Shown: one piece after another, positions 7,829 to 33,098 of the stretch
Position numbering within the stretch: the first letter of the stretch is position 1
Layout of the letters: every line of letters starts with the position of its first letter
Assembly (NCBI RefSeq): GCF_023715605.1
Contig: NZ_JAMBOL010000017.1
Location: 1-63,365, forward strand
Origin: Halalkalibacter oceani
GTDB taxonomy: Bacteria; Bacillota; Bacilli; Bacillales; Bacillaceae_D
Reading direction: 5' to 3'
DNA length: 63,365 nt
Made by a program: the position numbers and the translations under genes
Notes under the pieces: model-generated
The model's input: the letters and a program-made list of their open reading frames with translations, nothing else
What the model was told of the DNA's origin: nothing
Databases searched by the model: none

Positions 7829-8920
7829 CTACGCCCCTTCCTCAATTCCGAGCTTCTTTTCCAAAAGCTCTTTATTTTGCAAAATTGCCGGGTCCTCCGG
7901 CCGATATTTTCTCGCCTGCTCATTATGATAATAGGATTTCTCCCAATCATGAAGTTGATAATAGCAAACGCAGAGCTGTAAATGAGGATACCAGGTGGAG
8001 TAAGCTAAATAGCTGAAGCTCCACTGGTTCTCATCAGGCTTTAGGGCAATTGCCTGCTCATACCAGTAGGTTGCATGTTGAAATTCCCGCCGGCGATGAT
8101 AGTAATAACCGATCCTGCTGCACGCTTCCGGTCTTGGCGTTTTCGTATATTCGAACGATTGCAGCAAGGACTTTAGCTCGCCATTATCATCTTGATTCAG
8201 TTTGCGCAGGCAGTCGGCTTTATGGATACACGCATAAAATTTATCTTCTACCCAGCCTTCTTGCAGGGCGAGATTTTGATTGTATGCTTCAATCGCTTCT
8301 TCCAGATGACCGTTTTCCCGCAGTTCATTTCCGTAATAGAAATAGTCCCTTGCGCTGAATGTGTCTCCCCGCTTAATTTTCTCACGGTAAATCGATAGGT
8401 TGCGACTAACGGCATGCTTGATTTTTTTATGGGTAATCGCGACGTCCGAGTTGATGATTTTCCCGAAAACATTTAAGTAATTATGAACATCTCCACCCCA
8501 TTTGAAATTACGCTCCCGTTTCACCAGACGGTTGCGCCGGTAGCGCAATGTCACATTGCCGAACTCATCCTTCCCGGCATTATAAAACATCGAAACAGAG
8601 TCAACACTCGGATCAAGTGTTTCTTTTAACGTCTTCAGCTTTTCCCTGTCCTCCTCCTCGACCACATCGTCCGCGTCAAGATAGAGAATGTAGTCCTTCG
8701 TTGCATATTTGAATGATTCATTGCGTGCCTCGGCAAAGTTTCCTGTCCATTCGAAGAAAAAAACCCGATCCGTGTATGCTTTGGCGATTTCCACAGTTCG
8801 ATCGGTTGATCCGGTATCGAGAATATTGATTTCATCAACAATGTCTTTAACCGAATCGAGACATCTTGCCAGAACTGCCTCCTCATTTTTAACCATCATA
8901 CATAGACTGATTGTGACCAC
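7829..8920 (-). CDS. GT2 glycosyltransferase with C-terminal TPR-like repeats
   Basis: A 363-residue protein. The N-terminal half is a GT-A family 2 domain beginning TISLCMMVKNEE, with DTGSTD (35-40) and the metal-binding LDADD (81-85). The C-terminal half is helical, rich in Tyr/Trp/Glu and organised like tetratricopeptide repeats (YYYGNEL, YYYHRRREFQHATYWYEQAI). The start is a GTG at 8920 with GGGAGT 11 bases upstream. A good SigK-type promoter lies directly upstream on the same strand, pointing to late mother-cell expression. It marks the left end of the spore glycan island; the acceptor and sugar are unknown. Confidence 0.85.
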   Translation of the reverse strand: MVTISLCMMVKNEEAVLARCLDSVKDIVDEINILDTGSTDRTVEIAKAYTDRVFFFEWTGNFAEARNESFKYATKDYILYLDADDVVEEEDREKLKTLKETLDPSVDSVSMFYNAGKDEFGNVTLRYRRNRLVKRERNFKWGGDVHNYLNVFGKIINSDVAITHKKIKHAVSRNLSIYREKIKRGDTFSARDYFYYGNELRENGHLEEAIEAYNQNLALQEGWVEDKFYACIHKADCLRKLNQDDNGELKSLLQSFEYTKTPRPEACSRIGYYYHRRREFQHATYWYEQAIALKPDENQWSFSYLAYSTWYPHLQLCVCYYQLHDWEKSYYHNEQARKYRPEDPAILQNKELLEKKLGIEEGA

Positions 8921-8954
8921 TCGTTGTTCAACTCCCTTTTCATTCTCGTTGTAA

Positions 8955-8981
8955 TAGAATATGCACGCCAGCCATGTTTGT
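8955..8981 (-). promoter_or_regulatory. SigK-type promoter for the GT2/TPR gene
   Basis: Minus strand: AC (8981-8980), 16-nt spacer, CATATTCTA (8963-8955). This fits the SigK consensus AC-N16/17-CATANNNTA exactly and lies 35 bp upstream of the GTG start at 8920. Confidence 0.65.
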
Positions 8982-9009
8982 TTAGCCTATATCATAAAAA
9001 AACCTGCCA

Positions 9010-9018
9010 CATATGATA
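9010..9018 (+). promoter_or_regulatory. SigK-type -10 element upstream of the first GT4 gene
   Basis: CATATGATA matches CATANNNTA and lies 22 bp before the ATG at 9040. No AC is seen 16-17 nt upstream, so it is a partial match. GerE-assisted promoters often have weak -35 boxes. Confidence 0.4.
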
Positions 9019-9039
9019 AATAAAAAAGGTGAGTGGAAC

Positions 9040-10071
9040 ATGACAAATACGAGCATCCGCGTTCTCCAGGGCACAATCAATATCGCCAACCAAATGAATA
9101 CGCAGGCAAAAGGATTAGAACGATTAGGGGTACCGATAAAAACGGCAAACCATTATCAAAATTACTTGAACTATCCAACGAAATACGATTTAAACATCGA
9201 GTTGCCCCGTGAGATAATGGCAGCTCAGCTCACTATCCAGGATCAGATTATTCCGGCATTCGACCTGTTCCATTTCCATTTCGCGACCAGTCTGCAGCGG
9301 GGAAATGTTGATTTACCTTTGTTAGCCGCCAACGGCAAACCGATTTGCATGCAGCATTGGGGCAGTGAGGTTCGCATGCTGTCTAAGGCTTTGAAAACAA
9401 ATCCGTTTGCCAAAGTAAAGCTGGAAGATGAAGGGAGATTACAGAAGAAACTCGAGGAACTGGGACAGTATATCCCTTTTTGTGTCGTTGCCGACCATGA
9501 GCTGATCCAATATGTACAACCATTTTATGAAGAGGTGCACGTCATTCCTTCGATGATTGACCTTCGGGATTATAAAAAGAGCTGGTTCCGGAAAAAGAGG
9601 AAAAGACCACTCATTGTCCATGCGCCCACCCATGTCGACGTAAAAGGAACACCCCACATTTTGCAGGCGGTTGAACAATTGAAACTATCCTACTCATTTG
9701 ATTTCAAGCTCATTCACGGCATGGCTCATCACGAAGCAAAAAAATGGTACAAAAAAGCGGATCTGATTATTGACCAGCTTCATATCGGCAGCTATGGGTT
9801 ATTTGCGGTTGAAGCGATGGCCCTTGGCAAGCCTGTGATCTGCTATATTAGCGATTATATGGCGGAGCATTATCCTAAAGACCTTCCGATTATTTCCGCG
9901 AACCCCGAAACCATTTTCGATACATTAAAAAATTTATTGAAAAACCAAGATCAATTGACCGAGCTAGGAAAAAAAGGGAGAGCTTATGTCAAGAAAGAGC
10001 ATAATATGGATAAAAACGCCGCCCGTCTTCTAAATCTTTACGAGCTGATGATGGGAAATAAAAAAGGTTGA
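9040..10071 (+). CDS. GT4-type glycosyltransferase, YtcC-like paralogue 1
   Basis: A 343-residue GT-B protein, one of four paralogues in this island. The N-terminal half has FHFHFATSLQ and the family motif MQHWGSEVR (MHHWGNDVR in the sisters). The C-terminal nucleotide-sugar half has VHAPTHVDVKGT and ADLIIDQLHIGSYGLFAVEAM with the donor-binding E. It is the most divergent copy and the only one on the plus strand. The ATG at 9040 has AAAGGTGAG upstream. B. subtilis YtcC, made late in sporulation, is the nearest named relative I know; donor and acceptor are not known. Confidence 0.85.
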   Translation: MTNTSIRVLQGTINIANQMNTQAKGLERLGVPIKTANHYQNYLNYPTKYDLNIELPREIMAAQLTIQDQIIPAFDLFHFHFATSLQRGNVDLPLLAANGKPICMQHWGSEVRMLSKALKTNPFAKVKLEDEGRLQKKLEELGQYIPFCVVADHELIQYVQPFYEEVHVIPSMIDLRDYKKSWFRKKRKRPLIVHAPTHVDVKGTPHILQAVEQLKLSYSFDFKLIHGMAHHEAKKWYKKADLIIDQLHIGSYGLFAVEAMALGKPVICYISDYMAEHYPKDLPIISANPETIFDTLKNLLKNQDQLTELGKKGRAYVKKEHNMDKNAARLLNLYELMMGNKKG

Positions 10072-10180
10072 GGCATTCTCTGAAAAGTACAATTTCACCT
10101 TTTTAGCAGCTTCCGCATTCTTCCGAGCCTTTCAGGAGAAAAAAGGTCCATACCTTTCTCGCTCCAGCTGGAAGCTGTAA

Positions 10181-10325: not shown

Positions 10326-11461
10326 TTATTCAATCGTTAATCCCGCGCTAGCATAACCGGCAACTGTCGCGGCAATATCCAGCCCTGCTGTGACATCCGC
10401 AGAAAATACCATAAGCAGCCGCGTTTCCGCCGTGACGGGGATACTTAGTCCTGTCGTGATACCATTGCTGATGTCCCCCACTGCTATCGTTCCTGTTAGT
10501 GGCGGCTCAAGCGTTACCGTTGCACCAGGAACAGCTGTAAACGTGTTATCAGGTGTAGTCGACTCAAACAGCTGTGCTGTGATCGTAACAGTGGATCCTA
10601 TTAAGCTCAATGCAGCTGTTCCACTGAAAAACGCTGCCAGTGACGTAATCGTTCCATCGCGCGGAACTGAGAAGGCCATATTCGTTACGCCGCTAAGATC
10701 AATCGTTTCCCCTACTGCACTTACTCCAGGCGTATTAAGACCGAAACCGACGATACTTGATGTATTCGCCAGACCGCCTAATACAGTTGTCAGGACAGCT
10801 GGTGTTCCGGAAGCGTAAGGAATAATCGCGCCTCCTCCTGCCGGACCTGTTGCTCCGGTTGCTCCCGCTGGACCCGTCGCTCCCGTGACTCCCGCGGGCC
10901 CCATTGGTCCAGTGGCTCCGGTCACTCCTGCTGGGCCCATTGGCCCAGTGGCTCCTGGGGGACCCGGTGGACCGGTTGGGCCAACCCCAGAGCCTCTACA
11001 GTTAATAAAGCGATATCATCGACGATAATATCGGCGGCTCCCTCGGCTGGTAGGGTGTTGACGAGAACCAATGCCTGGGCAGTGTTCTCCGGCGCAGGTG
11101 TTGAGGTGTGATAGACCCTCATCCACGTATTATTTTCTATAACTGGAATTCGATCTACTTCTACATGCGTAATCAGGCCATAGCCTATAAAATTAAACGC
11201 ACTGTCGTAGTAATTGATCGCCAATGTCATCGGCGGTGCTGGCGAACTGCTCGTTTTAGTGAGAGCAACAGACAACCCAAAGCTTTCATCAGGAGCAGCT
11301 GGAATAAGATGACATACATAGGAATTTATTACTTCTCCTGGCAAGTGCACGGCCTGAAAACCTGAATGACTTGCGTCCGTTATGATTGTCCCGTTTAATG
11401 AAATCCAAGGCTCCATGAGATCCGCTTCAAAACTTCCGTTCAGCAAGCGATTTCTTACCAT
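10326..11461 (-). pseudogene. Collagen-like (GXT) exosporium-type protein with NTTRR-like N-terminus, frameshifted
   Basis: Two overlapping frames form one gene of about 378 codons. The first frame (11461 to 10922) encodes a β-rich domain starting VRNRLLNGSFE...PW, typical of the NTTRR-F1 domain found before collagen-like repeats. The second frame (down to 10326) encodes [12 protein letters not shown] triplets and then the [12 protein letters not shown]...VGFG domain of BclB-type exosporium glycoproteins. They join at a run of four Gs (CCCC at 10985-10988 on plus): one more G restores an uninterrupted [15 protein letters not shown] reading. As written, the first frame stops after an out-of-frame tail. 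A sequencing error, slippage switching or a true pseudogene all remain possible. It is surrounded by glycosyltransferases, as BclA-type genes often are. Confidence 0.82.
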
Positions 11462-11584: not shown

Positions 11585-13426
11585 CTAATTGACCGTAACC
11601 ATTCTTTCTGACTCAAGCGGATACAGTGTAGCCAACGCTTGCTCGATTGATAGCAGTGATTGGTTCGCAAGGTTTTTGCGCAACGGCTCTTCCGCCTCTA
11701 ACAGGCTCCGCTGCCGGTTCCCATCGGTAAATCCGCCCCGGCTTCCGTGCACGAGAATCCAGTAGTGAAAGCTCTCGAGCAGATCACCGAGCAGCTGCTC
11801 TCTCTCCGCTTGCAGCAAGCCATCTACAGCCACAGCGTAGGATGCTTCTTTATAGCTCAGCTCTTCCTGACTCGCTCTTAAATGGGCGACCGCTAAATTA
11901 TTAAGCGCTTGATGGCCGATCCGGACGAGGCCGTGCTGCGATAAAGCAAAAGGAGTAAGAAGCATGCTTGAGGAAAGCAGCTCATTCCAGCCTGCTGTTA
12001 CATTCAGCAAGTAATTTCCGATATGAACTAAGTCGGTTGTTCGCAGCGTCTGATAAGCGATGCTTTGATAATTAAGCACAACATCCGCCGAAGCTGTCTC
12101 AGCTAAATAATGTTCAATAACCGGAATCGTTATTTCCTGGATCGAATCATGAAACAATACTGCATCCCCTTGAGCAAAATAGCTTCCGACCGAAAAAGCG
12201 ACTCCCGCATCAAGAGGCGGCTCCAGTTCAATATACGGAATTTGCAATGGCGCATCTTGAACGGTTCCTTTCGCCATAACAGGAATAACTTCGATATTGC
12301 GCGCGAGAAGCTGCTCGATAATCGAATGCAATTGTTGATGATAATGCCGAACATAGAGTACAACCGTATAAGGCCGAACCGGGCTTGAAGAATTCCATTG
12401 AAGCTTGCTTAACGCCTGTGGCAGCCCGGCTTTTTTGGCTGCTCCCTTTCCAAGTCGCGGACCGTATTTTTTCAATAAATAATCAAGCGTTTCAATCGTG
12501 TCCCCGTGCATGCGCTGATAAGCTTCGGACATCACTTCGCCCGGCTTCTTTTCATGGTTCGGACGAATTTTGTTATAAGCCAGCACATTAAATGTATTAT
12601 CGACAGATACCGTCAGTCCGTGATCAATCGTCAGCGCATTCCCCAACAGCGGATTGCTTAGCGCTTCCTTCGTGATCGTCTGCAACGCTTTGGCACTGTA
12701 GGCGTGCGGAATCGTCAGCGCATTTTCTCCCCCAAGTTCCGGTTTACCTTGAATGTAATTCAAAAAATAACGCGCTGCTGATATAATATCCGACTTCGGA
12801 TAGTTCATAATCCACTCAAGTGAGTTGAGGCTAAGATCGACACCCTTTTCAACAGCGTGGACAAGGGGCAGCAATTGACTTGCATCGATTCGAATATCGC
12901 CATCTGTGAAAAGATAAATATCGGCAGACACTTCTCTGGCACCGATATAGCGGCCAATATCATTTCCAAGCGGCTCACTGTATGTGATCACCGTTGCCCC
13001 CTGGCTCGCAGCAATTTGCGCGGTCGCGTCGGTAGAACCATTCACAACAACAAGAATCGTTGTTGGGGCAAGCCGCTTTACTTGCTGAATCACTTCACCA
13101 ATCGTATCCGCCTCATTCATAGCGGGAATGACAACAGCAAGACTTTTACTCCGATCCCTTGGCAAAATCGTTGTGTTCGGCACAGCAGGAGGGGGCGGCT
13201 TAACCGGTTGCGTTTGCCGTACCGCCGGCATCGGGCTCGCCGGTGGTGGTGGTGGCACCTCATTGACTGCCGGAAGGGAAGGCGATAATGGCCGCTCCTG
13301 TGTCTCATTATTCACTTCAGGGGGAGGCTGAGCAGGGGCCTGCTCAACCGGCGGCTCCTCTCCTCGTAAACGTCTATAATAGTCTTCCTTATTTTTGATT
13401 ACTCTGTAGTGAAATGAATCATTCAT
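11585..13426 (-). CDS. GT2-family glycosyltransferase with Pro-rich N-terminus
   Basis: A 613-residue protein in three parts. Residues 1-28 are charged (NDSFHYRVIKNKEDYYRR). Residues 29-90 are a Pro/Glu-rich low-complexity linker. A GT-A domain begins at LAVVIPAMNEADTI, with VNGSTD, TDGDIRI (DxD) and a downstream helical region. The last 250 residues look like a second, degenerate Rossmann-like half (YTVVLYVRHYHQQLHSI...) plus helices. It has no signal peptide or membrane helix. The start at 13426 has AAGGAGAG upstream. It lies directly upstream of, and on the same strand as, the collagen-like gene, so it may modify that protein; this is inference from position. Confidence 0.82.
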   Translation of the reverse strand: MNDSFHYRVIKNKEDYYRRLRGEEPPVEQAPAQPPPEVNNETQERPLSPSLPAVNEVPPPPPASPMPAVRQTQPVKPPPPAVPNTTILPRDRSKSLAVVIPAMNEADTIGEVIQQVKRLAPTTILVVVNGSTDATAQIAASQGATVITYSEPLGNDIGRYIGAREVSADIYLFTDGDIRIDASQLLPLVHAVEKGVDLSLNSLEWIMNYPKSDIISAARYFLNYIQGKPELGGENALTIPHAYSAKALQTITKEALSNPLLGNALTIDHGLTVSVDNTFNVLAYNKIRPNHEKKPGEVMSEAYQRMHGDTIETLDYLLKKYGPRLGKGAAKKAGLPQALSKLQWNSSSPVRPYTVVLYVRHYHQQLHSIIEQLLARNIEVIPVMAKGTVQDAPLQIPYIELEPPLDAGVAFSVGSYFAQGDAVLFHDSIQEITIPVIEHYLAETASADVVLNYQSIAYQTLRTTDLVHIGNYLLNVTAGWNELLSSSMLLTPFALSQHGLVRIGHQALNNLAVAHLRASQEELSYKEASYAVAVDGLLQAEREQLLGDLLESFHYWILVHGSRGGFTDGNRQRSLLEAEEPLRKNLANQSLLSIEQALATLYPLESERMVTVN

Positions 13427-14098: not shown

Positions 14099-15067
14099 CT
14101 AGGGTAAGTGAGCACGATACCAGTCAATTGTTTCAAGCAGCCCTTGCTCTAATCTTACGACCGGCTCATAGCCGAGAACCTCTTTCATTCTCGTAATATC
14201 GGGCTTTCTGACAAGCATATCCTCATACCCTGGGCCATACGCGTGCTGATAAGAGACGGTACTGATTTTTGACGGGGAGGCAGTCAGCTTCTTAATACGC
14301 TCAGCCAATGAGGCAATCGTTATTTCCGCTTCTGTTCCGATATTAATGACCAGACCATCTGCCTTTGGGCTCATCGCGCGCGCTGTCGCCGCTGCCGTAT
14401 CTTTGACAAAGGTAAAGCAGCGGCTTTGCTTTCCGTCCCCAAAGACCTCAAGCGGCTCACCTTTCAATGCAGCTTTGATAAAGATCGGTACAACACCGCC
14501 ATAGGAAGTGGACGTCGCCCGCGGTCCGAAAGCATTAAAGTAGCGGAGAATCGTAACCGGTAACCCTTCCTTGCCGTAAGCAAGACATAAATGTTCTTCA
14601 AGCGCTTTAACACTTGAATAGCACCATCTATGCACGCTGGTGGCTCCTAGAATTCTGTCGCTTTCGTCCTCTGAAAAGGGGGTCGCTGTGTTTTTTCCAT
14701 AGACCTCAGAGGTCGACGCAAACACAACCTTTTTGTGATGGCGGAAGGCTTTCTTTAATAAAAGGCTCGTGCCTTCCAAATTGCCATTGATCACATGCAA
14801 AGGGTGTTCAACCGTATGTTTAACACCGAGCACGGCCGCCAAATGAAAGATGCCATCCACTTTTGGGATCAGATCATCCAGCAGTTCTTCATTCTCGCAG
14901 TCTCCTTTTACAAATATAAAACGATCCGAAGCGGTTAGATTCTGTATGTGAGAAAAATCGCTATTTGATAAATTATCAAGGCAGTAGACATGATGACCTT
15001 CCGCAATTAAATGCTCACACAAATGAGAACCAATAAACCCCGCCCCTCCAGTAACCAGTACCTGCAC
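14099..15067 (-). CDS. NAD-dependent nucleotide-sugar epimerase/dehydratase (YtcB-like extended SDR)
   Basis: A 322-residue extended short-chain dehydrogenase. The Rossmann motif GGAGFIGSH is at 7-15, followed by HLAAVLG. The catalytic Ser-Thr-Ser region (FASTSEVYG) is present, and YSSVK supplies Tyr and Lys. The C-terminus binds the nucleotide sugar (FNAFGPRA, GDGKQSRCF). It could be a UDP-sugar 4-epimerase or a decarboxylase; the family alone does not decide. A GTG start at 15067 follows GAGGTGAGATT. It is 12 bp downstream of the UDP-sugar dehydrogenase, the order of the B. subtilis sporulation operon ytcA-ytcB. Confidence 0.88.
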   Translation of the reverse strand: MQVLVTGGAGFIGSHLCEHLIAEGHHVYCLDNLSNSDFSHIQNLTASDRFIFVKGDCENEELLDDLIPKVDGIFHLAAVLGVKHTVEHPLHVINGNLEGTSLLLKKAFRHHKKVVFASTSEVYGKNTATPFSEDESDRILGATSVHRWCYSSVKALEEHLCLAYGKEGLPVTILRYFNAFGPRATSTSYGGVVPIFIKAALKGEPLEVFGDGKQSRCFTFVKDTAAATARAMSPKADGLVINIGTEAEITIASLAERIKKLTASPSKISTVSYQHAYGPGYEDMLVRKPDITRMKEVLGYEPVVRLEQGLLETIDWYRAHLP

Positions 15068-15079: not shown

Positions 15080-16336
15080 TTACAATCGAATCACATTTTT
15101 TGAATGATCTGAAATTCGATTTCTTGTATCCAAAATTAACTTCGCATGTGCTTTCAGTGCCGTGTAATCAATTTGACTATGGTCTGTCAAAATCACGACG
15201 CAATTATAGGATTCAATGACTTTCTGCTCTAACGCGATGCTTTGATACATTTGTTGATTGATTTCGATCTCTTCTACATAAGGGTCGTAATAATCAGCCT
15301 GATAGCCTTTGCCGATTACATGCTCCATCACCGGAACAGACATTGATTCACGAATATCATTGACATCACGCTTATAGGTCATGCCGATTAACAACACGCT
15401 TTTTTCCTCAGCCGGCTCCCCGATCAATTCCTCAATTCGTTTCATAATATAGCGAGGCTGGGCATCATTGACATCCTTGGCCAAATCAATGAACGCCGTT
15501 GGCATATTGGCATTATTTGCTTTCCACTTTAAATAGAGCGGGTCGACCGGAATACAATGACCACCGATCCCAGGCCCAGGGTAGTATGGCGTAAATCCGT
15601 ATGGCTTCGTACTGGCTGCCTGAATGACCTCCCAAATATCAATATCAAGTCCATGACAGATTTGCGCCATTTCATTCATGAACGAAATGTTGATCAGCCG
15701 TTGAGCGTTTTCCAAAATTTTCGTCATTTCCGCCACTTTCGGTGAGCTTACCGGCACAAGCGTCTCAAACGCCGCCCCGTAAATGCTTGTCACTTTTTTT
15801 AGACATTTATCCGTCACGCCGCTGACCACCTTGGGGATTTGCCCCAATGTATACATATGATTTCCCGGGTCAATACGTTCCGGAGAATAGCCGATAAATA
15901 AATCTTCTCCAACGGCAAAGCCGGCTTTTTCCACCATTTCAAGCATGACTTCTTCTGTCGTTCCAGGGAAGGTTGAGCTTTCCAGAACGAGCAATTGCCC
16001 TTTCTGCAAATGAGGCAGAAGCGTCGAAATAGCCGTTTGTAAATAACTTAAATCCGGATACTTGTGCTCTCTTAAAGGAGTCGGTACACATAAAAGAATC
16101 GCTTCAGCCTCTTTAGCCCGGCTGAAATCTGACGTTACGTCTACACGCCCTGTTTTCATGAAAGCTTCCACTTCTTGATCACTCAAGTCAGATAGGTACG
16201 ACTTTCCAGATTTTATCTTCTCTACTTTCGATTGATCAATATCAATCCCGATAACAGGATAGTCTTTCGATGCGAATAACATGGCTAATGGTAATCCGAC
16301 ATAACCAAGTCCAATGATAGCGATTTTTGTATTCAT
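15080..16336 (-). CDS. UDP-sugar 6-dehydrogenase (YtcA/WbpA-like)
   Basis: A 418-residue nucleotide-sugar dehydrogenase. The N-terminal NAD domain is IAIIGLGYVGLPLA (5-18), followed by LCVPTPL, ESSTFPGTTEE and GYSPERIDPG, which fits UDP-HexNAc as well as UDP-glucose dehydrogenases. The catalytic loop is PGPGIGGHCIPVDP with the active-site Cys. The C-terminal domain has LLIGMTYKRDVNDIRES. It oxidises C6 to a uronic acid. Because WbpB-, WbpD- and WbpE-like genes are nearby, UDP-GlcNAc is a plausible substrate, but YtcA-like use of UDP-glucose cannot be excluded. The ATG at 16336 follows AAAGGAG; the longer frame is rejected. Confidence 0.88.
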   Translation of the reverse strand: MNTKIAIIGLGYVGLPLAMLFASKDYPVIGIDIDQSKVEKIKSGKSYLSDLSDQEVEAFMKTGRVDVTSDFSRAKEAEAILLCVPTPLREHKYPDLSYLQTAISTLLPHLQKGQLLVLESSTFPGTTEEVMLEMVEKAGFAVGEDLFIGYSPERIDPGNHMYTLGQIPKVVSGVTDKCLKKVTSIYGAAFETLVPVSSPKVAEMTKILENAQRLINISFMNEMAQICHGLDIDIWEVIQAASTKPYGFTPYYPGPGIGGHCIPVDPLYLKWKANNANMPTAFIDLAKDVNDAQPRYIMKRIEELIGEPAEEKSVLLIGMTYKRDVNDIRESMSVPVMEHVIGKGYQADYYDPYVEEIEINQQMYQSIALEQKVIESYNCVVILTDHSQIDYTALKAHAKLILDTRNRISDHSKNVIRL

Positions 16337-24790: not shown

Positions 24791-24829
24791 GCTCTTCACT
24801 CCAAACTTTGTTCAAAATTCATTCTGCCT

Positions 24830-25314: not shown

Positions 25315-25341
25315 ACAATTTCGGCAGGGCTTCATACTATA
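25315..25341 (+). promoter_or_regulatory. SigK-type promoter for the gene at 25421
   Basis: AC (25315-25316), 16-nt spacer, CATACTATA (25333-25341): a full match to AC-N16-CATANNNTA. It leaves a leader of about 75 nt before the ATG at 25421. Confidence 0.65.
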
Positions 25342-25420: not shown

Positions 25421-26089
25421 ATGAGTCTTAAGAAACACAGTGTCTGCATTAGAGTGCCTAAAGTTTTTGACTGGGTGACTCGTCAGATTGACTTACCGAC
25501 TATCAGTTTTCGCGAACCGGAGCTGTCTAACTTGTTCTCTTGCACACAAACTCCAACGCCAGCTGTTGATTTATGTACATTCCTAGCAAACTTCCCTAAT
25601 TTCAGCAGCCAATGCCGCGTGCTGGAGGACTCCCTTTTCACTCAGGAAGTGTTCCAATCCGGTGGCCGCAGTGAAGTTGAAGTGTCATTAGGTGACGGGA
25701 ATGACATTACTCTTGAAAAGGTCAAAGTATTAGCGAAAGGATTGCTTGAAGTTGATATTTTAGACCAAAACGGCAATGTGATTTGTACGTCTGATCCAAT
25801 TGAGTTCGCGACAATCCAAACATTCTATTTATGCGCTCCGGAAGGAACAGTCGTTGAATCATTTATTTCTCACGGCGAGTGCGACTCTGAAATTGTCTGC
25901 ACAGGAACATTCGATCAGCTGGATATTTCCTTAACCTTCTGCTTAGATGTTCATGTGATTGCTGACGTCAAATTGGAAGTGGAAGCTGCTTACTGCAAAC
26001 CGCGCAAAGAGCTTCCTGTAGCCGACGTCATCTGCAAAACAGACAAATTCCCTCCACAATGCCCGCTCGTCTTTCCAGGAAAGCACTAA
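25421..26089 (+). CDS. Cysteine-containing protein, probable late spore-surface component
   Basis: A 222-residue soluble protein with about ten cysteines spread along it, β-rich composition and no signal peptide. It opens with SLKKHSVCIRVPKVFDWVTRQ, a pattern I associate with uncharacterised Bacillaceae proteins, and ends in short Cys/Pro segments (CKTDKFPPQCP). An exact SigK-type promoter upstream, a strong ribosome site (AGGAGG) and its place among spore glycan genes support a coat, exosporium or appendage role. It does not match cotXYZ, and I cannot assign it to the Ena pilin family by eye. A terminator follows at 26203. Confidence 0.72.
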   Translation: MSLKKHSVCIRVPKVFDWVTRQIDLPTISFREPELSNLFSCTQTPTPAVDLCTFLANFPNFSSQCRVLEDSLFTQEVFQSGGRSEVEVSLGDGNDITLEKVKVLAKGLLEVDILDQNGNVICTSDPIEFATIQTFYLCAPEGTVVESFISHGECDSEIVCTGTFDQLDISLTFCLDVHVIADVKLEVEAAYCKPRKELPVADVICKTDKFPPQCPLVFPGKH

Positions 26090-26314: not shown

Positions 26315-27001
26315 ATGGATTCACGATTATCAACGAAAAAAGATGATTCCACGATACAGCTGCAACAAAAATTAATTCATTATCGCTCTGAGCTGAAGAA
26401 ATATTACCGTGTTATTGAGAAGCATCAAAAAAAGATTGCTGACCAGGCGGCGATGATTGCTTCATTAGAAGAACAGCTGCAGGAGGATCAGCCCGGGCAG
26501 GCGCTACCGGAAGGAGCAGAACCGTTTTCCTGCTACTTTATTTATTCATTGCTTGTTCCTTCGCGGGTCGAGCATAATGAGGAACCTGTTATCATTAAAG
26601 GAAGCTTCCTGATTAAAAATCATGGAATGGAGCCGTTATCAAGCCCTGTCATTTGCCTTGCTTTCAGTCAGCCTTCTCTTGCCAATATTTCAGGTAAAAT
26701 CACCCATCCGCGGAAGCGGCAGCTCGATGAATTCATCGTCGAGGATGAACAGCTCTACGGGGAATGGCAGTACCTTGAAGGGCACAGCCATAAAAAGATG
26801 AAAGACAGTGGCGAAATCTGGCTGAGACCGCTTCACCTACAGCAAATCGACAGCGGGGAAACGGTTCGTTTTTCCGATTTCGAAATCGCGCTCCCTCTGA
26901 CAACCGAATACAAAAACATGTCGGTAAAAGGCTTTATTTACGGAGCTGAAATTCCTGAAGGGCAGGCTGCTCTGAACCAGATCAGCGTTGCGCTCACATG
27001 A
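26315..27001 (+). CDS. Coiled-coil plus β-domain protein, spore glycan island
   Basis: A 228-residue protein in two parts. Residues 14-60 form a coiled coil (LQQKLIHYRSELKKYYRVIEK...) closely resembling the start of the protein at 13552. Residues 70-228 form a predicted β-sandwich (FSCYFIYSLLVPSRV, PVIIKGSFLIKNHG) without a motif I know. GGAGGAG lies before the ATG. It overlaps the CgeB-like gene by 4 bp (ATGA), so the two are coupled. A role as scaffold or acceptor for the glycosyltransferase is conceivable but unproven. CATACATAT sequences upstream could be a SigE or SigK -10. Confidence 0.75.
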   Translation: MDSRLSTKKDDSTIQLQQKLIHYRSELKKYYRVIEKHQKKIADQAAMIASLEEQLQEDQPGQALPEGAEPFSCYFIYSLLVPSRVEHNEEPVIIKGSFLIKNHGMEPLSSPVICLAFSQPSLANISGKITHPRKRQLDEFIVEDEQLYGEWQYLEGHSHKKMKDSGEIWLRPLHLQQIDSGETVRFSDFEIALPLTTEYKNMSVKGFIYGAEIPEGQAALNQISVALT

Positions 27002-27966
27002 TGACCGCCAACAGGCATGTGCTGGTGCTGCGCTCAGGCTATGGCAAGGTGTATCGGTATTTTGAAGACTCGATCGTTTCCGCGCTTCACAACCTTGCCC
27101 TCAGCAGCAGCCTCGCACCGGCCCATCCGCTGAACACCGAAGCACTCATTGAATCATGCCGGCAGGAAAAGCCGGATCTCGTCCTGACGCTGCTCGGCTA
27201 CCAGCTGGATGTCCGTTTTTTTGAATGGCTTCAGAAAAACGAGATCCCCCTTGCTGTCTGGCTGACGGAGGATCCTTATATGATCGACCGATCCTTGCAG
27301 GTTTTGCCCTATGCCAAAAAAGCCTTTACGATTGACCGCCAGGCGCTGAGCTACTACCGGAAGCTCGGCTTCACTGATACAGCCTTTCTCCCTTTGGCGA
27401 CGAATCCGGATGTGTACAAACGAGGAAAACAGCTTGATGAGCTGGCCTCCTCCATTTGCCTCGTCGGCTACCCTTATCAGGCGCGGGTCGACTTAATTCG
27501 TTTTCTTGCAGACCATCTTCCCCTTCCAATCACGGTCGTCGGCGAATGGAAGGATATTTCCTTGCCTTCGCATGTCAACGTCGTCTCAAGATGGGTTACT
27601 CCGCAAGACGTTGCTCTATTTTACACAAGCAGCCGGATCGTCCTGAACACATACCGCTCGGACAGCGATCCGGCAAATGATAATTCAACCGGAGTCAAAG
27701 GCACGAGCCTGAACAATCGTACATTTGAAATCGCCAGCTGTCGCGCTCTCCAGCTCACGGAATACCGTACTGAGCTTCATGATTTTTTTTCCGTCGATGA
27801 AATCCCGTCCTTCCGAACAAAAGAGGAATTGCCGGATAAGATTAAGCAGCTGCTCGCCAATCCCACCGACGCCGAGCAGGCCGCCAACAAGAGCTACCTT
27901 GCCGTCACCCGCCATCATACGTTTGAGAATCGCCTCGCCAAACTGCTAAGCTATTTTCCCGCATGA
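26998..27966 (+). CDS. cgeB: CgeB-like spore maturation glycosyltransferase
   Basis: A 322-residue GT-B protein of the CgeB (DUF3880 plus glycosyl transferase 1-like) family, matching the 317 residues of B. subtilis CgeB. It shows GYGKVYRYFEDSIVSAL at the start, LAVWLTEDPYM in the middle, and ASSICLVGYPYQARVDLI and NNRTFEIASCRALQLTEYR in the C-terminal donor domain. CgeB acts late in sporulation on the outermost spore layer under SigK and GerE. Tandem ATG codons leave one codon of uncertainty. It is the second gene after the coiled-coil/β protein and is convergent with the rhamnose operon. Confidence 0.83.
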   Translation: MMTANRHVLVLRSGYGKVYRYFEDSIVSALHNLALSSSLAPAHPLNTEALIESCRQEKPDLVLTLLGYQLDVRFFEWLQKNEIPLAVWLTEDPYMIDRSLQVLPYAKKAFTIDRQALSYYRKLGFTDTAFLPLATNPDVYKRGKQLDELASSICLVGYPYQARVDLIRFLADHLPLPITVVGEWKDISLPSHVNVVSRWVTPQDVALFYTSSRIVLNTYRSDSDPANDNSTGVKGTSLNNRTFEIASCRALQLTEYRTELHDFFSVDEIPSFRTKEELPDKIKQLLANPTDAEQAANKSYLAVTRHHTFENRLAKLLSYFPA

Positions 27967-27979
27967 ACGAGGAGGACTG

Positions 27980-28027: not shown

Positions 28028-29140
28028 TCACCGGGCCGACCGCTTTTTTTGCAATCGCCTTGCCGCCAGGCGCACCTCATCCGGCTGACTGAGAAGCTCC
28101 GCTATTTTCTGATAGAGCGCTTCGGCGTGGAACGGGGCAACGGTCCAGCCTCCGTCCGTTTCCTGGACGGCTTCGGCCTGGGCACCGAGTTCAAAGCAGA
28201 GCACTGGATAGCCGCTATTTAACGCTTCGCGGGTCGTATAAGAGAACGTTTCTGGACAGATTGATGGGATCAGGACGAGGTCGATTTGATCGGCAGCAAG
28301 GAGGGCCGGCAGCTGGTCACGTTGAAATTCCCCGCGCTGAATAAAAACGGGACTTGCTTTCTTCGCCAAGAGATGATCGGCGTTGCCATAGAGAAACAGC
28401 TTTACCGGCAATTTTCGCCGATCGAGCTTGCCGATCAGCTCCAGCACCTGCTTCGAGCCTTTATGGACCGCCATATGGCCGGCAATCCCGATCCGCAGCT
28501 CCCGTGATCGTTTCGATTCTCCATTTGGCGGCGGCTGACGATAAACAGGATGGGGCTGAACGACATAATCCAACTCGGGAAAATAGCCTTGCATCACTTG
28601 CTTTGCTGACTGACTGGGAACGATGATGCGCCGTGCTTTTTGCAAAAGCTCAAGCTGCCATCGCCTCCATTCTTCAATTGAACCCGCGCGCCCGACCATC
28701 TCCTCCATCAGCCGCCGTCCGATTCCTGTCCTGCTGCAGTGGCGGCATATTCGTACCTCTTTCTCCTGTCCGCAATAGTGTCCTTTTGGCGTAATAAAGA
28801 AAAGCTGGGGGCAGGCGGCGAGATAATCGTGAATGTGGATGTCATATGGCACCGGAAAAAGCTCCAAAAATGAAAGCAGCCGCTCAAGCGGAAATCCCCA
28901 AACGTGGTCAATCATCACGGCATCGAGTGGAGTCGATGTTAGTTGTTGGACAAAGGCGGGGCTGTCCAGCGCTGTCAGCGGCCACTCGCTTTCAGTCTCC
29001 GCTTCACAGAGAATCAGTCTTTGCTCGCGGACAAAAAGGATGAGTAGCTCGGCATTATGTTCGACTGCCCACTGCTGACGAAACAGCCTCACCCCGCCGC
29101 CGCCATGATGGGTCAGGACGAGCACCCGCTTTGCCTTCAT
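28028..29140 (-). CDS. Glycosyltransferase family 4, end of the rhamnose operon
   Basis: A 370-residue GT-B enzyme: KRVLVLTHHGGGGVRLF at the N-terminus, IHDYLAACPQ and a four-Cys stretch (YCGQEKEVRICRHC) seen in some rhamnosyl or mannosyl transferases. The donor domain has LRIGIAGHMAVHKGSKQ and PSICPETFSYTTREALNSG with the donor Glu. The ATG at 29140 overlaps the SpsL stop (ATGA). Placement as the last gene of the dTDP-rhamnose operon makes a rhamnosyltransferase likely; specificity is not visible in the sequence. Confidence 0.85.
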   Translation of the reverse strand: MKAKRVLVLTHHGGGGVRLFRQQWAVEHNAELLILFVREQRLILCEAETESEWPLTALDSPAFVQQLTSTPLDAVMIDHVWGFPLERLLSFLELFPVPYDIHIHDYLAACPQLFFITPKGHYCGQEKEVRICRHCSRTGIGRRLMEEMVGRAGSIEEWRRWQLELLQKARRIIVPSQSAKQVMQGYFPELDYVVQPHPVYRQPPPNGESKRSRELRIGIAGHMAVHKGSKQVLELIGKLDRRKLPVKLFLYGNADHLLAKKASPVFIQRGEFQRDQLPALLAADQIDLVLIPSICPETFSYTTREALNSGYPVLCFELGAQAEAVQETDGGWTVAPFHAEALYQKIAELLSQPDEVRLAARRLQKKRSAR

Positions 29141-29592
29141 CGATGCTTCGTCTCCCAATCAAATGAAATGAGAGGATCATCATAGGCAAGACGATATTCA
29201 TCAGGCCGCTCCACCTGATACGCCTTCGTCGTCAAATACATCATGACGACCGGAGTTTCACCGAGCACCCGGTAGCCGTGAGCCACTCCGGCGGGAATCG
29301 TCAAAATGAGCGGATTGTCCTCTCCCATATAGCACACCTGCGTTTCCCCGTTCGTCGGCGATTCCTCCCGCAAATCATAGAGCACAACCTCGGCATTTCC
29401 CGCCACAAAAAACCAAACATCATCCTGCTCTTTATGATAATGAAACGCTTTGATCACCCCGGGATACGATTTTGAAAGCGACCATTGTCCGAATTGTGAC
29501 AGCAGGTCTTCATCATTGCGGACAAGCTCCGCGAAAAAACCGCGATCATCACAATGCTTCGTAATCTGCTTCAGCTTCACTCCGGTAATCAT
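29137..29592 (-). CDS. spsL: dTDP-4-dehydrorhamnose 3,5-epimerase-like protein (SpsL)
   Basis: A 151-residue single cupin of the RmlC type, the same size as B. subtilis SpsL and shorter than the usual RmlC (about 180). It has VIKAFHYHKEQDD with the metal/active-site His pair, VVLYDLREESPT and IPAGVAHGYRVL. The proposed reaction is epimerisation at C3 and C5 of dTDP-4-keto-6-deoxyglucose. The ATG at 29592 follows GGAGG and overlaps the rfbD stop by 4 bp. SpsL-type proteins are less certain enzymes than classical RmlC. Confidence 0.85.
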   Translation of the reverse strand: MITGVKLKQITKHCDDRGFFAELVRNDEDLLSQFGQWSLSKSYPGVIKAFHYHKEQDDVWFFVAGNAEVVLYDLREESPTNGETQVCYMGEDNPLILTIPAGVAHGYRVLGETPVVMMYLTTKAYQVERPDEYRLAYDDPLISFDWETKHR

Positions 29593-30443
29593 CGTCTTTG
29601 CCTCCTTTCCTGCAAATAGCGAATAAGCGTCGGCTTCCAATGAGCCGGCTCCGGCAGTCCGGCAGCCGGCAACTGATCCAACCCTAAGATGGTGCGCGGT
29701 GGACGAACGGCGACTCCGGGCTGCCTAACAGTTTTGACCGGCTCGACCGTAATCTGATCCAGCTGCAACGATTCCATGATCACCTTCGCCATTTCATAGC
29801 GGCTGCAGCTCCCTCTATTCGTCACATGAAACACACGGCCACGCGCGCCGCCTTCGAATAAACGCAAACAATAGCTAACTACATCCTCAACATAGGTAGG
29901 GGAGCCGATTTGATCATCGACGACCGAGATAGTGCGCTGCAAAGCGGCCCGCGCTACAATTTTTTCGATAAAGTCGTTTTCATGACCGCCATATAGCCAG
30001 GCGGTGCGGACAATCAAGGCGCGCGGATGGGCCTGCAACGTCAGCTGCTCGCCAATCCATTTGCTCGCTCCATAAACAGATAGCGGAGAGGGGGGACTGT
30101 CCGGTTCATACGGCGTTGAGGAATAAGCGGAAAAGACATAATCGCTGCTGATGGAAATTACATCAGCCTTTACCTGGGCGGCGGAGCGGGCGACATGAAA
30201 AGAGCCATGACTGTTAATGCGAAAGGCGCGTTCCGGCTCGCGCTCACATTGATCAACGTCCGTCAGCGCGGCGCAATGAATGACGAGAGTCGGCTGTACT
30301 TTTTCCAGCACGGCGCGCACCTCTGCTTCTCTCGTCACGTCAAGCTGCTCTTTTCCACAGACTACGACATCCGCTTTGTTCTTCAGCCGCTGATAAAAGG
30401 CTCTCCCCAGCTGCCCCATCCCCCCCGTAATGAGCACCTTCAT
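29589..30443 (-). CDS. rfbD: dTDP-4-dehydrorhamnose reductase (SpsK/RmlD)
   Basis: A 284-residue reduced-length SDR. KVLITGGMGQLGRAF binds the cofactor, ALTDVDQCE is the RmlD signature, ISSDYVFS contributes the catalytic Ser/Thr, and SVYGASKWIGEQ the Tyr-x3-Lys. It catalyses the last step to dTDP-L-rhamnose. The ATG at 30443 overlaps the stop of the dehydratase (ATGA), so both are translated as a unit; the upstream in-frame start at 30479 is rejected. It is equivalent to B. subtilis spsK, used for spore-surface rhamnose. Confidence 0.92.
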   Translation of the reverse strand: MKVLITGGMGQLGRAFYQRLKNKADVVVCGKEQLDVTREAEVRAVLEKVQPTLVIHCAALTDVDQCEREPERAFRINSHGSFHVARSAAQVKADVISISSDYVFSAYSSTPYEPDSPPSPLSVYGASKWIGEQLTLQAHPRALIVRTAWLYGGHENDFIEKIVARAALQRTISVVDDQIGSPTYVEDVVSYCLRLFEGGARGRVFHVTNRGSCSRYEMAKVIMESLQLDQITVEPVKTVRQPGVAVRPPRTILGLDQLPAAGLPEPAHWKPTLIRYLQERRQRR

Positions 30444-31405
30444 CGAAACGCCCCTTTTCTCCATTGATTCCGGTACCATAAAGCCGTATCCTCAAGTCCT
30501 TGTTCAAACGACGTGACAGGCTGCCAGCCGAGCTGCTTTTTGAGCTTTTCCGAGGATAGCGCATACCGTCTGTCATGACCCTTCCGATCCTCGACAAATG
30601 AGATCAGCTTTTCGTTTTTACCGAGCAGATGCAAAATACGTTTCACTGTTTCAAGATTTGTATATTCACGCGTACCGCCAATGTGATAGATGTCGCCTGG
30701 TACTCCTTTTTTCATAATATTGACAATCGCCATGCAATGATCCCGAACATGCAGCCATTGTCTGCGGTGCGCGCCATCACCGTAAAGCGGAATCGTTTTA
30801 TTTTCCAACGCATGCACAATCACTTTCGGAATCAGCTTTTCAGCATGCTGATAGCGCCCGTAATTGTTGGCGGCACGCATAATAATGACCGGGAGGGAAA
30901 AGGTCTGGACGTACGAATGGATCAAAAGGTCGGCTCCTGCTTTACTGGCGGCATACGGATTGCCCGGTCGGAGAAGCGCCTCTTCCGTTAGCGGCTCCGT
31001 CGTCGATTCGAGCGAACCGTAAACTTCATCTGTCGACATATGAAGCAGCAATCCGCACCGTCCCTGCCTCACTTGCTCAAGCAGATGATACGTCCCGATC
31101 ATATTCGTATCCAAAAACGGTTTCGCCTTCGCGATGCTCCGGTCAACATGGGTTTCCGCCGCCAGATGAACAACGACATCATAGGACCTCTGAAAAAGCT
31201 GCTCCACCTCCGCTTGCTTTGTCACATCCCCTTCAATGAACTGAACCCGCGGCTCCTCTTTCAGCTTCTCCAACTCCCTGCGATTCGCCGCATACGTAAG
31301 TGAATCAAAGATCGTCACGTCCCCGTCATTCATTTCCAGCAGGTAATAAACAAGATTCAAACCGATAAATCCTGCTCCGCCTGTAATAAGGATTGATCGT
31401 CGCAT
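30440..31405 (-). CDS. rfbB: dTDP-glucose 4,6-dehydratase (SpsJ/RmlB)
   Basis: A 321-residue extended SDR. SILITGGAGFIGLNL is the NAD motif; LAAETHVDRSI and MSTDEVYGSL are RmlB signatures with the catalytic Asp-Glu pair, and YAASKAGAD holds Tyr/Lys. AANNYGRYQ and YGDGAHRRQWLHV bind the dTDP-sugar. It converts dTDP-glucose to the 4-keto-6-deoxy sugar. The ATG at 31405 follows AAGGGGG; the frame open to 31435 lies partly inside spsI. It is equivalent to B. subtilis spsJ. Confidence 0.94.
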   Translation of the reverse strand: MRRSILITGGAGFIGLNLVYYLLEMNDGDVTIFDSLTYAANRRELEKLKEEPRVQFIEGDVTKQAEVEQLFQRSYDVVVHLAAETHVDRSIAKAKPFLDTNMIGTYHLLEQVRQGRCGLLLHMSTDEVYGSLESTTEPLTEEALLRPGNPYAASKAGADLLIHSYVQTFSLPVIIMRAANNYGRYQHAEKLIPKVIVHALENKTIPLYGDGAHRRQWLHVRDHCMAIVNIMKKGVPGDIYHIGGTREYTNLETVKRILHLLGKNEKLISFVEDRKGHDRRYALSSEKLKKQLGWQPVTSFEQGLEDTALWYRNQWRKGAFR

Positions 31406-31416
31406 GCTTATCCCCC

Positions 31417-32130
31417 TTAATAACCACCTAACCACTCATTTGCCAGCTGATAGGATTGATGCGTTCCGGCATCAATCCACCACCCTTTCAGCCTGCGCCA
31501 TTCCAGTTCTCCTTTTTTGAGGTAACGAATGAGAACATCGGTAATTTCCAGCTCATTTCGTGCAGAGGGTGCAATGGCATCAATATGACGAAAAACAGTC
31601 GCATCAAAACAGTAAATTCCCGTCACCGCCCATTGCTTTCCTTTTAAATCAGGCTTTTCCTGCAGAGAGACGAGCTCATTTTCTGCTGAAAATGTCGCAA
31701 TCGCAAATTGCTTTGGAGTGACTGTCGGCGAAAGCAAAATTTGCGCAGGTTGATCCGATTGTAGATAGACGGCGAGATAATCGGTTAAATCGTCTTCAAA
31801 TAAATTATCACCAAGCAGTACGACGAACTTCTCTCCGTTCGCAAAATCCTCAGTGAGTGCCAGGGCGGCGGCAATCCCATTTGGAGCGGACTGCTCAATA
31901 AACTGATAAACAGGGTAGAGATGTTCAAACGGCTGGAGTGCTTCAGTGAACATCGCTCTTTCCCCGCAATTAATGACAATGGCGGCTTCTGTTACTTCGG
32001 CTTCTTTCATTTTCACAAGCGCCCAATGGATCATCGGCTTACCGTGAACATGGAGTAAATGTTTATTGACGGACTTTGTTAACGGATAGAGCCTTTTCCC
32101 CCTTCCTCCTGCTAAAATAATCCCCTTCAT
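31417..32130 (-). CDS. spsI: Glucose-1-phosphate thymidylyltransferase-type enzyme (SpsI)
   Basis: A 237-residue nucleotidyltransferase. The N-terminal motif GIILAGGRGKRLYPLT holds the phosphate-binding GGxGxRLxP. VVLLGDNLFEDDL supplies metal-binding Asp and EITDVLIRYLKKGEL the later conserved block. It is short like B. subtilis SpsI (246) rather than RmlA (about 290), lacking the C-terminal allosteric part. It makes dTDP-glucose for the next three enzymes. It lies 15 bp downstream of the DUF1360 gene and heads the rhamnose genes. Confidence 0.91.
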   Translation of the reverse strand: MKGIILAGGRGKRLYPLTKSVNKHLLHVHGKPMIHWALVKMKEAEVTEAAIVINCGERAMFTEALQPFEHLYPVYQFIEQSAPNGIAAALALTEDFANGEKFVVLLGDNLFEDDLTDYLAVYLQSDQPAQILLSPTVTPKQFAIATFSAENELVSLQEKPDLKGKQWAVTGIYCFDATVFRHIDAIAPSARNELEITDVLIRYLKKGELEWRRLKGWWIDAGTHQSYQLANEWLGGY

Positions 32131-32145
32131 ATCATCACCCCTTAG

Positions 32146-32508
32146 TTATTCACCGACTGATTTAACCCACGCTTCCAACATCGCTGCCAGTGCTGCCAGC
32201 GCGAGGATGACGAGGACCGGGTGAAAAACAACAGGATAGAGCGTTACCCCTGCATATAAAAATAGAGCACACCAGACCCCCATACACCAATAGCAGCTTA
32301 AAAGCATGCCAATAAAGCGCTGGATGCCTCTCCCTTTAGGTTCGATAAACGTCACCGTTTCCCCGTTTTCCTGTTTTTCTTCAACGAGGGTCTGAAACGG
32401 TTTGCGGATGAATTCACAAATCGTATCAAAGACGAGCAAATGAGTGAGGCGAAAAACCGCTAAAGCAAGAATCAAAAACTCAAATGGCGTCAGGCTCATT
32501 GCGCCCAC
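32146..32508 (-). CDS. DUF1360 membrane protein (YngL-like)
   Basis: A 120-residue protein with three hydrophobic segments (about 10-28, 66-85, 88-112) around a charged loop. FRLTHLLVFDTICEFIRKPF is the DUF1360 signature; B. subtilis YngL belongs to the same family and is sporulation-linked. Its biochemical role is unknown. It is the first gene of the spsIJKL-GT operon, so it may be needed for placing or exporting the rhamnose glycan. A SigK-type -10 lies upstream at 32534-32542. Confidence 0.78.
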   Translation of the reverse strand: MGAMSLTPFEFLILALAVFRLTHLLVFDTICEFIRKPFQTLVEEKQENGETVTFIEPKGRGIQRFIGMLLSCYWCMGVWCALFLYAGVTLYPVVFHPVLVILALAALAAMLEAWVKSVGE

Positions 32509-32533
32509 TTCCTCTTTTTACCGGCGTTACTAT

Positions 32534-32542
32534 TACGTTATG
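32534..32542 (-). promoter_or_regulatory. SigK-type -10 element for the DUF1360-rhamnose operon
   Basis: Minus strand CATAACGTA matches CATANNNTA 25 bp before the ATG at 32508. No AC lies at 16-17 nt upstream, so the match is partial. It is back to back with the full SigK-type promoter at 32587. Confidence 0.45.
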
Positions 32543-32586
32543 CAAAAAGCTGCTTGTATCAATCCACTTTTCCCGGCTAGACAAAC

Positions 32587-32613
32587 ACCTTTTTTTTCTT
32601 TGTACATAGGCTA
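32587..32613 (+). promoter_or_regulatory. SigK-type promoter for the Gly-rich-tailed protein
   Basis: AC (32587-32588), 16-nt T-rich spacer, CATAGGCTA (32605-32613): a full match to the SigK consensus, 32 bp before the ATG at 32646. Confidence 0.7.
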
Positions 32614-32645
32614 CTAGCATGAAAAAGGAAAAGGAGTAGATTGAG

Positions 32646-33098
32646 ATGAATGAGCATTATCCTTACCCTCATCAGCCGATGCGCCAGCAACCGTCTGTCC
32701 AGTTCCTCCCTCCGAATGTCGTCGGCAATTACGTCAACCAGTGGATTACGACTTCCATTTCCGGCTATGGTCAGGTCGTTGCCTACATTACTGATTTCAA
32801 CCGGCAAAATGGGATGGTTTCGATGTTTTTGTATCAGCCCCCTTACTATCAGCCGCAGTTCCTGCAGGTCAGCCATGTCGATCTCGTCGGCATCGCTCCT
32901 TACTACGGCCCGATCCCGCCAAGACCGGGCATACCACCAGGTGGAGGCGGTGGATGGCACCCTGGCGGAGGCCAGGGAGGCGGATGGCCTCCTGGTGGAG
33001 GCCAAGGTGGCGGACATCATCCTGGCGGCGGGCAAGGCGGCGGCTTTTGGCCATGGTTATTCCAGCAAACGTTCGGTTCAGGTCAGCAGCAAGGATAA
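32646..33098 (+). CDS. Probable spore coat/exosporium protein with Gly-rich tail
   Basis: A 150-residue protein. Residues 1-30 are Pro/Gln/His/Tyr-rich, 30-95 form a compact β-rich domain (NVVGNYVNQWITTSISGYGQVVAYITDF), and 95-145 are repeated GGGQGGGW(P/H)PGGG units. It ends FWPWLFQQTFGSGQQQG. Gly/Tyr-rich proteins of this kind are common on Bacillus spore surfaces. An exact SigK-type promoter and AAAGGAG ribosome site support expression late in sporulation. The family is not recognised, and the repeats hamper homology search. It marks the right end of the island. Confidence 0.75.
   Translation: MNEHYPYPHQPMRQQPSVQFLPPNVVGNYVNQWITTSISGYGQVVAYITDFNRQNGMVSMFLYQPPYYQPQFLQVSHVDLVGIAPYYGPIPPRPGIPPGGGGGWHPGGGQGGGWPPGGGQGGGHHPGGGQGGGFWPWLFQQTFGSGQQQG

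Follow-up and report, generated by a model that had tools for sequence, protein, structure and literature searches.

A sugar gene block in a 63,365-nucleotide stretch of bacterial DNA (the window; contig C33 of a 4.47-Mb genome) is probably a mother-cell glycosylation locus, expressed at sporulation time, that supplies UDP-2,3-diacetamido-2,3-dideoxy-glucuronic acid and rhamnose for a glycan on the outer spore layer. Enzyme families, their placement in trees, co-inheritance, coat and collagen-like neighbours, and promoter-like boxes in relatives carry this reading, and from them we infer the substrates, product, acceptor and timing. Through a gene set that several related spore-formers share, spores appear to be decorated with an unusual acidic sugar, one known until now from bacterial surfaces of other kinds.

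What would this imply? Adhesion and hydrophobicity depend in part on the sugars of the spore surface, of which few are known. If the reading is right, a pathway of O-antigens and wall polymers has been put to a new use on spores in at least 18 genera, where it provides an acidic sugar in the place that legionaminic acid takes in Bacillus subtilis. The four-enzyme set would then serve as a genomic marker of spore chemistry.

The four core enzymes and their co-inheritance

A sequence-only reading of this DNA had placed a UDP-sugar dehydrogenase, a Gfo/Idh oxidoreductase, a DegT aminotransferase and a hexapeptide acetyltransferase in one block, with the order of activities of WbpA-B-E-D. Pfam and NCBIfam matches confirm the coordinates and families. 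The gene order does not hold: the genes run in two transcription blocks, E-B-(SDR)-GT and GT-GT-D-A-(SDR), where SDR is a short-chain dehydrogenase/reductase and GT a glycosyltransferase. By coordinates, DegT and Gfo overlap by 4 bases, and Gfo and the second SDR (21656) by 11.

All four core genes lie on the reverse strand. The UDP-N-acetylhexosamine 6-dehydrogenase (WbpA role; 15080..16336, in an open reading frame, or ORF, that extends to 16492, with its likely start at the ATG at about 16336) matches TIGR03026 at 436 bits (cut-off 189.8), and its best PDB match is Cap5O (7e-67). A 52-row clade (SH-aLRT 99) unites it with dehydrogenases from WlbA-type loci of Bacillales and from a Lawsonia plasmid set; WecC and Cap5O lie outside this clade, and Escherichia coli Ugd and the genome's own second, UDP-glucose-type dehydrogenase are far away. 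This tree, which covers neither Pseudomonas aeruginosa WbpA nor the true dehydrogenases of two relatives (loci L038 and L040), speaks to placement only. The WlbA/WbpB-like Gfo/Idh 3-dehydrogenase (22590..23675) has PDB entries 3q2k (3e-45) and 3q2i (3e-44) as its nearest solved structures, and the next match is at 4e-26. We take both structures to be WlbA; the structure listing calls them just oxidoreductase or dehydrogenase. In the Gfo tree, the window lies within its own clade of 34 rows (SH-aLRT 99), with no resolved relation to the WlbA clade. The Gfo gene of relative G028 (L045 9572-10619), which is split into two frames in a locus whose other core genes are open, was left out of that tree. 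The C3-type sugar aminotransferase (WbpE role; 23672..24799) is the genome's sole full-length DegT match (PF01041, 426 bits); twelve more matches clear Pfam's low cut-off, all of them partial and none above 53 bits. Its nearest structures are 7b0d, QdtB, DesV and WbpE, and it shares a clade (95/85) with the DegT proteins of the capsule-type loci described below. The left-handed beta-helix (hexapeptide) N-acetyltransferase (WbpD role; 16649..17341) is assigned from PF00132, a QdtC match at 2.5e-28 and its tree. The dehydrogenase, Gfo and acetyltransferase trees are quick trees with long-branch warnings.

Gfo homologues were searched for in 120 relatives and then in 397 genomes of the taxonomic order, and neighbourhoods of up to 20 kb were retrieved. 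From the larger search these comprised, besides the earlier ones, 20 top-ranked matches and 20 of many lower-ranked ones, so further window-type loci may exist. The window-type set consists of 34 relative loci of the window's Gfo clade (18 genera, 12 families), and the comparison set of 17 capsule-type loci that carry a sister gene set in the same order. Spore-type and capsule-type labels were assigned from Gfo matches before markers were counted, except for G366 (L109), from the second batch, which was added by tree position. Sixteen control loci surround paralogous Gfo genes, chosen from paralogue-type matches and including the genome's own. Eight further Gfo loci were kept out of the contrasts.

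The four-gene set is common as a unit to 18 genera of 12 families. This follows from partner counts, gap-filling genome searches and the control loci. Of the 34 relatives, 32 carry DegT within the 20-kb locus, all 34 the acetyltransferase and 30 the dehydrogenase; in 31 of the 32, DegT adjoins Gfo and shares its strand. For the four genomes with gaps, genome searches located the missing genes elsewhere, in two cases as an adjacent DegT-dehydrogenase pair; the dehydrogenase found in this way for G231 is only 36% identical and is doubtful. None of the three partners occurs in any of the 16 control loci. One relative (G023) has dehydrogenase, acetyltransferase, Gfo and DegT genes in a contiguous run. 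In genus g4 (L132 7661-8864, L134 6247-7597), a DegT-dehydrogenase pair lies apart from Gfo and the acetyltransferase, beside flanking genes of the window's left edge.

The nearest named relative found is Halalkalibacter oceani P106, whose Gfo/Idh protein is 94% identical. Its block is mostly in the same order, without the collagen gene and with the glycosyltransferase gene 9013 split. A scan of genome contigs with one protein matched only H. oceani and one remote sequence. The 19 records named in a plasmid search include no spore-former of this group. A Lawsonia intracellularis plasmid (L121 7968-12991) carries the full set together: Gfo, DegT, acyltransferase and nucleotide sugar dehydrogenase.

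Spore or capsule context

Does the locus serve the spore or the vegetative cell? The same enzyme families occur in capsule-type loci of the order and, in the excerpts of PMC13274773, in Streptomyces wall polymer clusters. The window's block could on that basis make a vegetative capsule or a teichuronic-type wall polymer, with coat genes adjacent by accident. We consider this unlikely. In a family scan of 40 of 71 listed ORFs from 6 of the 17 capsule-type loci (L099 left out), Wzx, Wzy and Wzz genes surround the set, whereas the block proteins scanned include no such flippase, polymerase or chain-length gene. Window-type neighbours were scanned at 50 of 61 ORFs from 10 loci; since the Pfam summary of spore-type neighbours lists 25 of 119 families, the absence of Wzx there rests on a cruder count of membrane proteins. 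By that count, polytopic membrane ORFs lie within 7 kb of Gfo in 6/34 window-type loci against 14/17 capsule-type loci (by true distances; a centred-locus count gives the same totals).

Spore markers separate the two sets as well. The window encodes a BMQ_0737-family morphogenetic spore coat protein (25421..26089, forward strand; NF052457, 224.6 bits, cut-off 71). Relatives of this gene occur in 16/34 window-type loci and in 0/17 capsule-type loci, and 19 of 35 genomes, the window's own included, have an NF052457 coat gene at a distance of up to about 20 kb, against 0/17. A domain that starts collagen-like proteins in relatives (10922..11461, reverse strand) is found in 13 of the 34 relative loci, and in all 13 proteins it is followed by 15–175 Gly-X-Y triplets. 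Taken together, a coat or collagen marker is nearby in 27/34 window-type and 0/17 capsule-type loci.

In relatives, promoter-like patterns partly point the same way. In counts that omit L038 and L040 (no DegT in the locus), 19 of 33 window-type cases show the sigma-K-like −10 box CATANNNTA in the 250 bp preceding DegT; shuffled sequences give a mean of 2.7 and a maximum of 7. With AC at the −35 place, CATANNNTA is found in 12 of 33 (shuffle mean 0.6, maximum 2). Upstream of capsule-type DegT genes the corresponding counts are 1/16 and 0/16, a weak contrast because these genes often lie inside an operon. A sigma-E-like −10 box together with its −35 box is found upstream of DegT in 0/33, and a sigma-A pattern in 2/33, which is not raised. 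The window's close kin have a CATATA box at DegT. In the window, the coat gene itself has a sigma-K-like promoter, AC-N16-CATACTATA (25315..25341, forward strand), a pattern seen in 11 of 15 coat genes tested, the window's included. Together, the coat genes, collagen-like proteins and sigma-K-like boxes support a sporulation-linked locus in relatives, in line with the spore link that had been proposed from the letters of the window.

Could the acidic spore sugar be legionaminic acid? The window's genome has no true NeuB: its one match is partial and scores 35 bits, against at least 233 for true ones. That match does exceed the Pfam cut-off, one so low that each of the 52 genomes has a match above it. 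With no true NeuB and a single full-length sugar aminotransferase of the DegT family, the genome is unlikely to make legionaminic acid by the usual route. Of the 35 window-type genomes, 9 have a true NeuB (H. oceani is one), as do 5 of the 17 capsule-type genomes. Hence, the 3-amino-uronate set and legionaminic acid are not exclusive.

Product, glycan and competing pathways

Conversion of UDP-N-acetylglucosamine (UDP-GlcNAc) to UDP-2,3-diacetamido-2,3-dideoxy-glucuronic acid is the simplest joint reading of the four enzymes. The dehydrogenase (15080) would oxidise UDP-GlcNAc at C6, Gfo (22590) would oxidise C3, the DegT enzyme (23672) would aminate C3, and the acetyltransferase (16649) would N-acetylate the resulting amine. 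The diacetamido-uronic acid had been suggested before, and the dehydrogenase placement, Gfo's nearest structures and the co-travelling genes argue for it. No UDP-sugar 2-epimerase (PF02350, WbpI role) appears among the block proteins in family scans, so that the mannuronic form (UDP-ManNAc3NAcA) is not expected; in the capsule-type loci, PF02350 turns up 5 times among the 40 ORFs scanned.

Two further sugar enzymes join the earlier list. First, an SDR (14099..15067, reverse strand) is a probable uronate decarboxylase: its best PDB match is UDP-glucuronate decarboxylase (1e-51), and S120, E121, Y150, K154 and R287, which we take to be the UXS/ArnA decarboxylase catalytic residues, are invariant in 8/8 sequences. 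It adjoins the dehydrogenase and is found in 7/34 relative loci. Second, an epimerase-like SDR in the DegT-Gfo operon (21656..22600, reverse strand; PF01370) is a probable C4 epimerase, with UDP-glucose 4-epimerases as best PDB matches, ST-x-S-V/I-Y and Y-x3-K residues, and presence in 23/34 loci. In this subgroup, 21656 may act on C4 or produce UDP-GalNAc, and one of the uronates may be the substrate that 14099 decarboxylates. The two enzymes could tailor the uronate, or make UDP-2-acetamido-2-deoxyxylose (UDP-XylNAc) and UDP-GalNAc. A more specific proposal is that spores of this genus carry a 2,3-diacetamido pentose or 2,3-diacetamido-galacturonic acid, through action of 14099 on the diacetamido-uronate and of 21656 on C4, built in the cytosol on collagen-like proteins, with the 3-amino-uronate replacing legionaminic acid as the acidic spore sugar in many Bacillales. 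We regard this proposal as rather improbable.

The same two SDRs raise the question of whether the core enzymes form one pathway at all. The dehydrogenase adjoins 14099, which has UXS/ArnA-type residues, and the two could make UDP-2-acetamido-2-deoxyxylose, a nucleotide sugar that Gu et al. (2010) reportedly found in Bacillus cereus subsp. cytotoxis. The product of Gfo, DegT and the acetyltransferase would then be a 3-acetamido sugar that is not a uronate, such as UDP-GlcNAc3NAc. Two short pathways of this kind seem improbable. The decarboxylase-like gene is in 7/34 loci, whereas a dehydrogenase is in 30/34 loci and in the other four genomes, and Gfo is nearest to 3q2k and 3q2i, presumably WlbA. 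WlbA acts on a uronate.

A third route would pass through dTDP-sugars. QdtB and QdtC rank high among the PDB matches, and RmlA and RmlB are present in the block, so RmlA/RmlB with DegT and the acetyltransferase might make a dTDP-3-acetamido-3,6-dideoxyhexose (Qui3NAc/Fuc3NAc). We judge this very improbable. The block proteins scanned include no FdtA/QdtA-type ketoisomerase family, RmlB is in 0/34 loci although DegT, Gfo and the acetyltransferase persist, and the route leaves Gfo and the dehydrogenase unexplained.

Several observations weigh against a diacetamido-uronic acid made for spores. First, the relatives share ancestry and are not independent, so that p-values from these comparisons overstate independence. 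Second, the enzymes are less sharply assigned than their families: all four fall short of the NCBIfam equivalog cut-offs, and the dehydrogenase comprises two lineages, with the enzymes of six relatives grouping with Lawsonia's and not the window's. The dehydrogenase's position with WlbA-type loci, far from UDP-glucose dehydrogenases, agrees with the WbpA-like role first proposed for it; the aminotransferase tree does not decide between WbpE and QdtB/DesV ancestry (approximately unbiased test, 0.445 and 0.216). Third, the motif R-x(2,4)-YY-x-W-R/K-G/A in Gfo was dropped as a uronate fingerprint. It occurs in 30/34 window-type, 16/17 capsule-type and 9/11 other sequences, and in 3q2k, 3q2i, Lawsonia and a glucuronide 3-dehydrogenase; its presence in the genome's own paralogue C102 means that it is not diagnostic. 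Fourth, coat and collagen markers are both missing in 7/34 window-type loci. Fifth, the upstream regions of the window's own DegT and dehydrogenase genes contain no strict sigma-K box, and the sigma-E-like −10 box alone is also raised (13/33; shuffle mean 3.8, maximum 10). Sixth, the collagen-like BclB-type gene is, as read from the DNA, broken over two frames in this assembly (10326-11461), and BclB collagen was rejected as a core part of the locus: a BclB domain is near the locus only in the window and in G015, with a remnant in G007.

How would the diacetamido-uronate reach the spore surface? Glycosyltransferases would join it with rhamnose into a glycan. Assembly would take place in the cytosol and need neither flippase nor polymerase, and the carrier would be a collagen-like protein, a coat protein of the outer spore layer, or both. 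The window has the eight glycosyltransferases that had been counted in it, although one is below Pfam cut-offs. A GT2 enzyme with TPR repeats (7829..8920, reverse strand; PF00535, 88 bits) is a candidate protein-linking glycosyltransferase that may act on the collagen-like protein. It has a weak SunS-like match (63 bits, far below the cut-off of 350) and is present in 13/34 relative loci at 55% identity or more, with 70–78% in 11 of those 13. In several relatives it adjoins the collagen-like gene. The others are a GT4-like enzyme (9013..10071, forward; PF00534, 35 bits), a large GT2 enzyme (11585..13426, reverse; PF00535, 54 bits), three GT4-like enzymes on the reverse strand (17353..18369, PF13524; 18385..19368, below Pfam cut-offs, 23/34 loci; 20659..21648, PF13524, 23/34 loci), a glycosyltransferase that we presume to be CgeB-like (26998..27966, forward; PF13524 and DUF3880) and a GT4 enzyme assigned by family scan (28028..29158, reverse).

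The collagen-like exosporium gene seen by the sequence-only reading holds up in its BclB C-terminal domain, encoded in the 3' part (10326..10940, reverse strand; TIGR03721, 216.6 bits, cut-off 93.15), and not as an intact gene, the domain at 10922–11461 being in a different frame. Collagen-like genes of other relatives share that N-terminal domain and not BclB. Near the locus of H. oceani lies a partial BclB match that is weak and contains a stop (G007:C53:25377-25499).

The complete rhamnose set is likewise there as described: RmlC, RmlD, RmlB and RmlA all match by Pfam or NCBIfam (29137..32130, reverse strand; genes at 29137, 29589, 30440 and 31417). RmlB passes TIGR01181 (414, cut-off 365) and RmlD passes TIGR01214 (267, cut-off 224); RmlC has PF00908 at 84 bits, and RmlA is short and below its equivalog cut-offs (194 against 320). 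As a conserved companion of the core genes the rhamnose set was rejected, RmlB being in 0/34 relative loci. H. oceani carries the set just beyond, in L033, outside the 34-locus count, and five relatives of genus g2 have just an RmlD-like gene at its place.

Neighbouring genes and known systems

Several other genes accompany the locus. A DUF4855 protein on the opposite, forward strand (19447..20514; PF16147, 150 bits) is in 22/34 loci; it is 100% identical to that of H. oceani, where most neighbours are at 92–98%. A protein with no family match (26315..27001, forward) is conserved in 14/34 loci, and a DUF1360 protein beside the locus (32146..32508, reverse; PF07098, 118 bits) in 12/34. The glycine-rich 32646-33098 has no match in Pfam or NCBIfam. 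Adjoining the block, 33223-36783 encodes a 1186-residue protein with laminin-G-like, calcineurin-like phosphoesterase and SLH domains. The FabI gene at 38380-39198 forms the right flank and is also beside the locus in several relatives, at 70–91% identity.

How does the locus compare with known systems? Its HexNAc dehydrogenase and the neighbouring decarboxylase-like SDR resemble in make-up the UDP-2-acetamido-2-deoxyxylose pair reported from B. cereus subsp. cytotoxis, but here a set for 3-amination stands next to them. With the WbpA-B-E-D/WlbA-type pathway it shares the four enzyme families and a Gfo protein nearest to enzymes that we take to be WlbA, but the block has no 2-epimerase (WbpI role), and coat and collagen genes stand in place of O-antigen genes. 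Gram-negative O-antigens contain GlcNAc3NAcA and related sugars, according to the excerpted text of PMC10622841. The matches listed in a search of the open-access literature, outside which most subscription papers lie, include no report of GlcNAc3NAcA on spores.

The utr clusters of Streptomyces griseus and S. antibioticus, as described in the excerpts of PMC13274773, make a GlcNAc3NAcA/ManNAc3NAcA wall polymer. They provide a precedent for Gram-positive use of the set, and in S. griseus a 4-epimerase lies beside it. In those same excerpts, however, the polymer belongs to the vegetative wall and not the spore surface, and S. griseus has a 2-epimerase. The BclA/BclB exosporium glycoproteins offer a different likeness: the window has the BclB C-terminal domain (TIGR03721) and collagen repeats in a glycosyltransferase locus, but its gene is frame-broken and the predicted sugar differs from the anthrose described in PMC6222408. 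A further counterpart is the B. subtilis group of sps, ytc and cge spore-crust glycan genes, which are alike in rhamnose set, glycosyltransferases, spore surface and an acidic amino sugar. B. subtilis spores carry legionaminic acid and rhamnose, by the excerpted account of PMC7439481, whereas the genome studied here is without a true NeuB and would supply a diacetamido-uronic acid instead.

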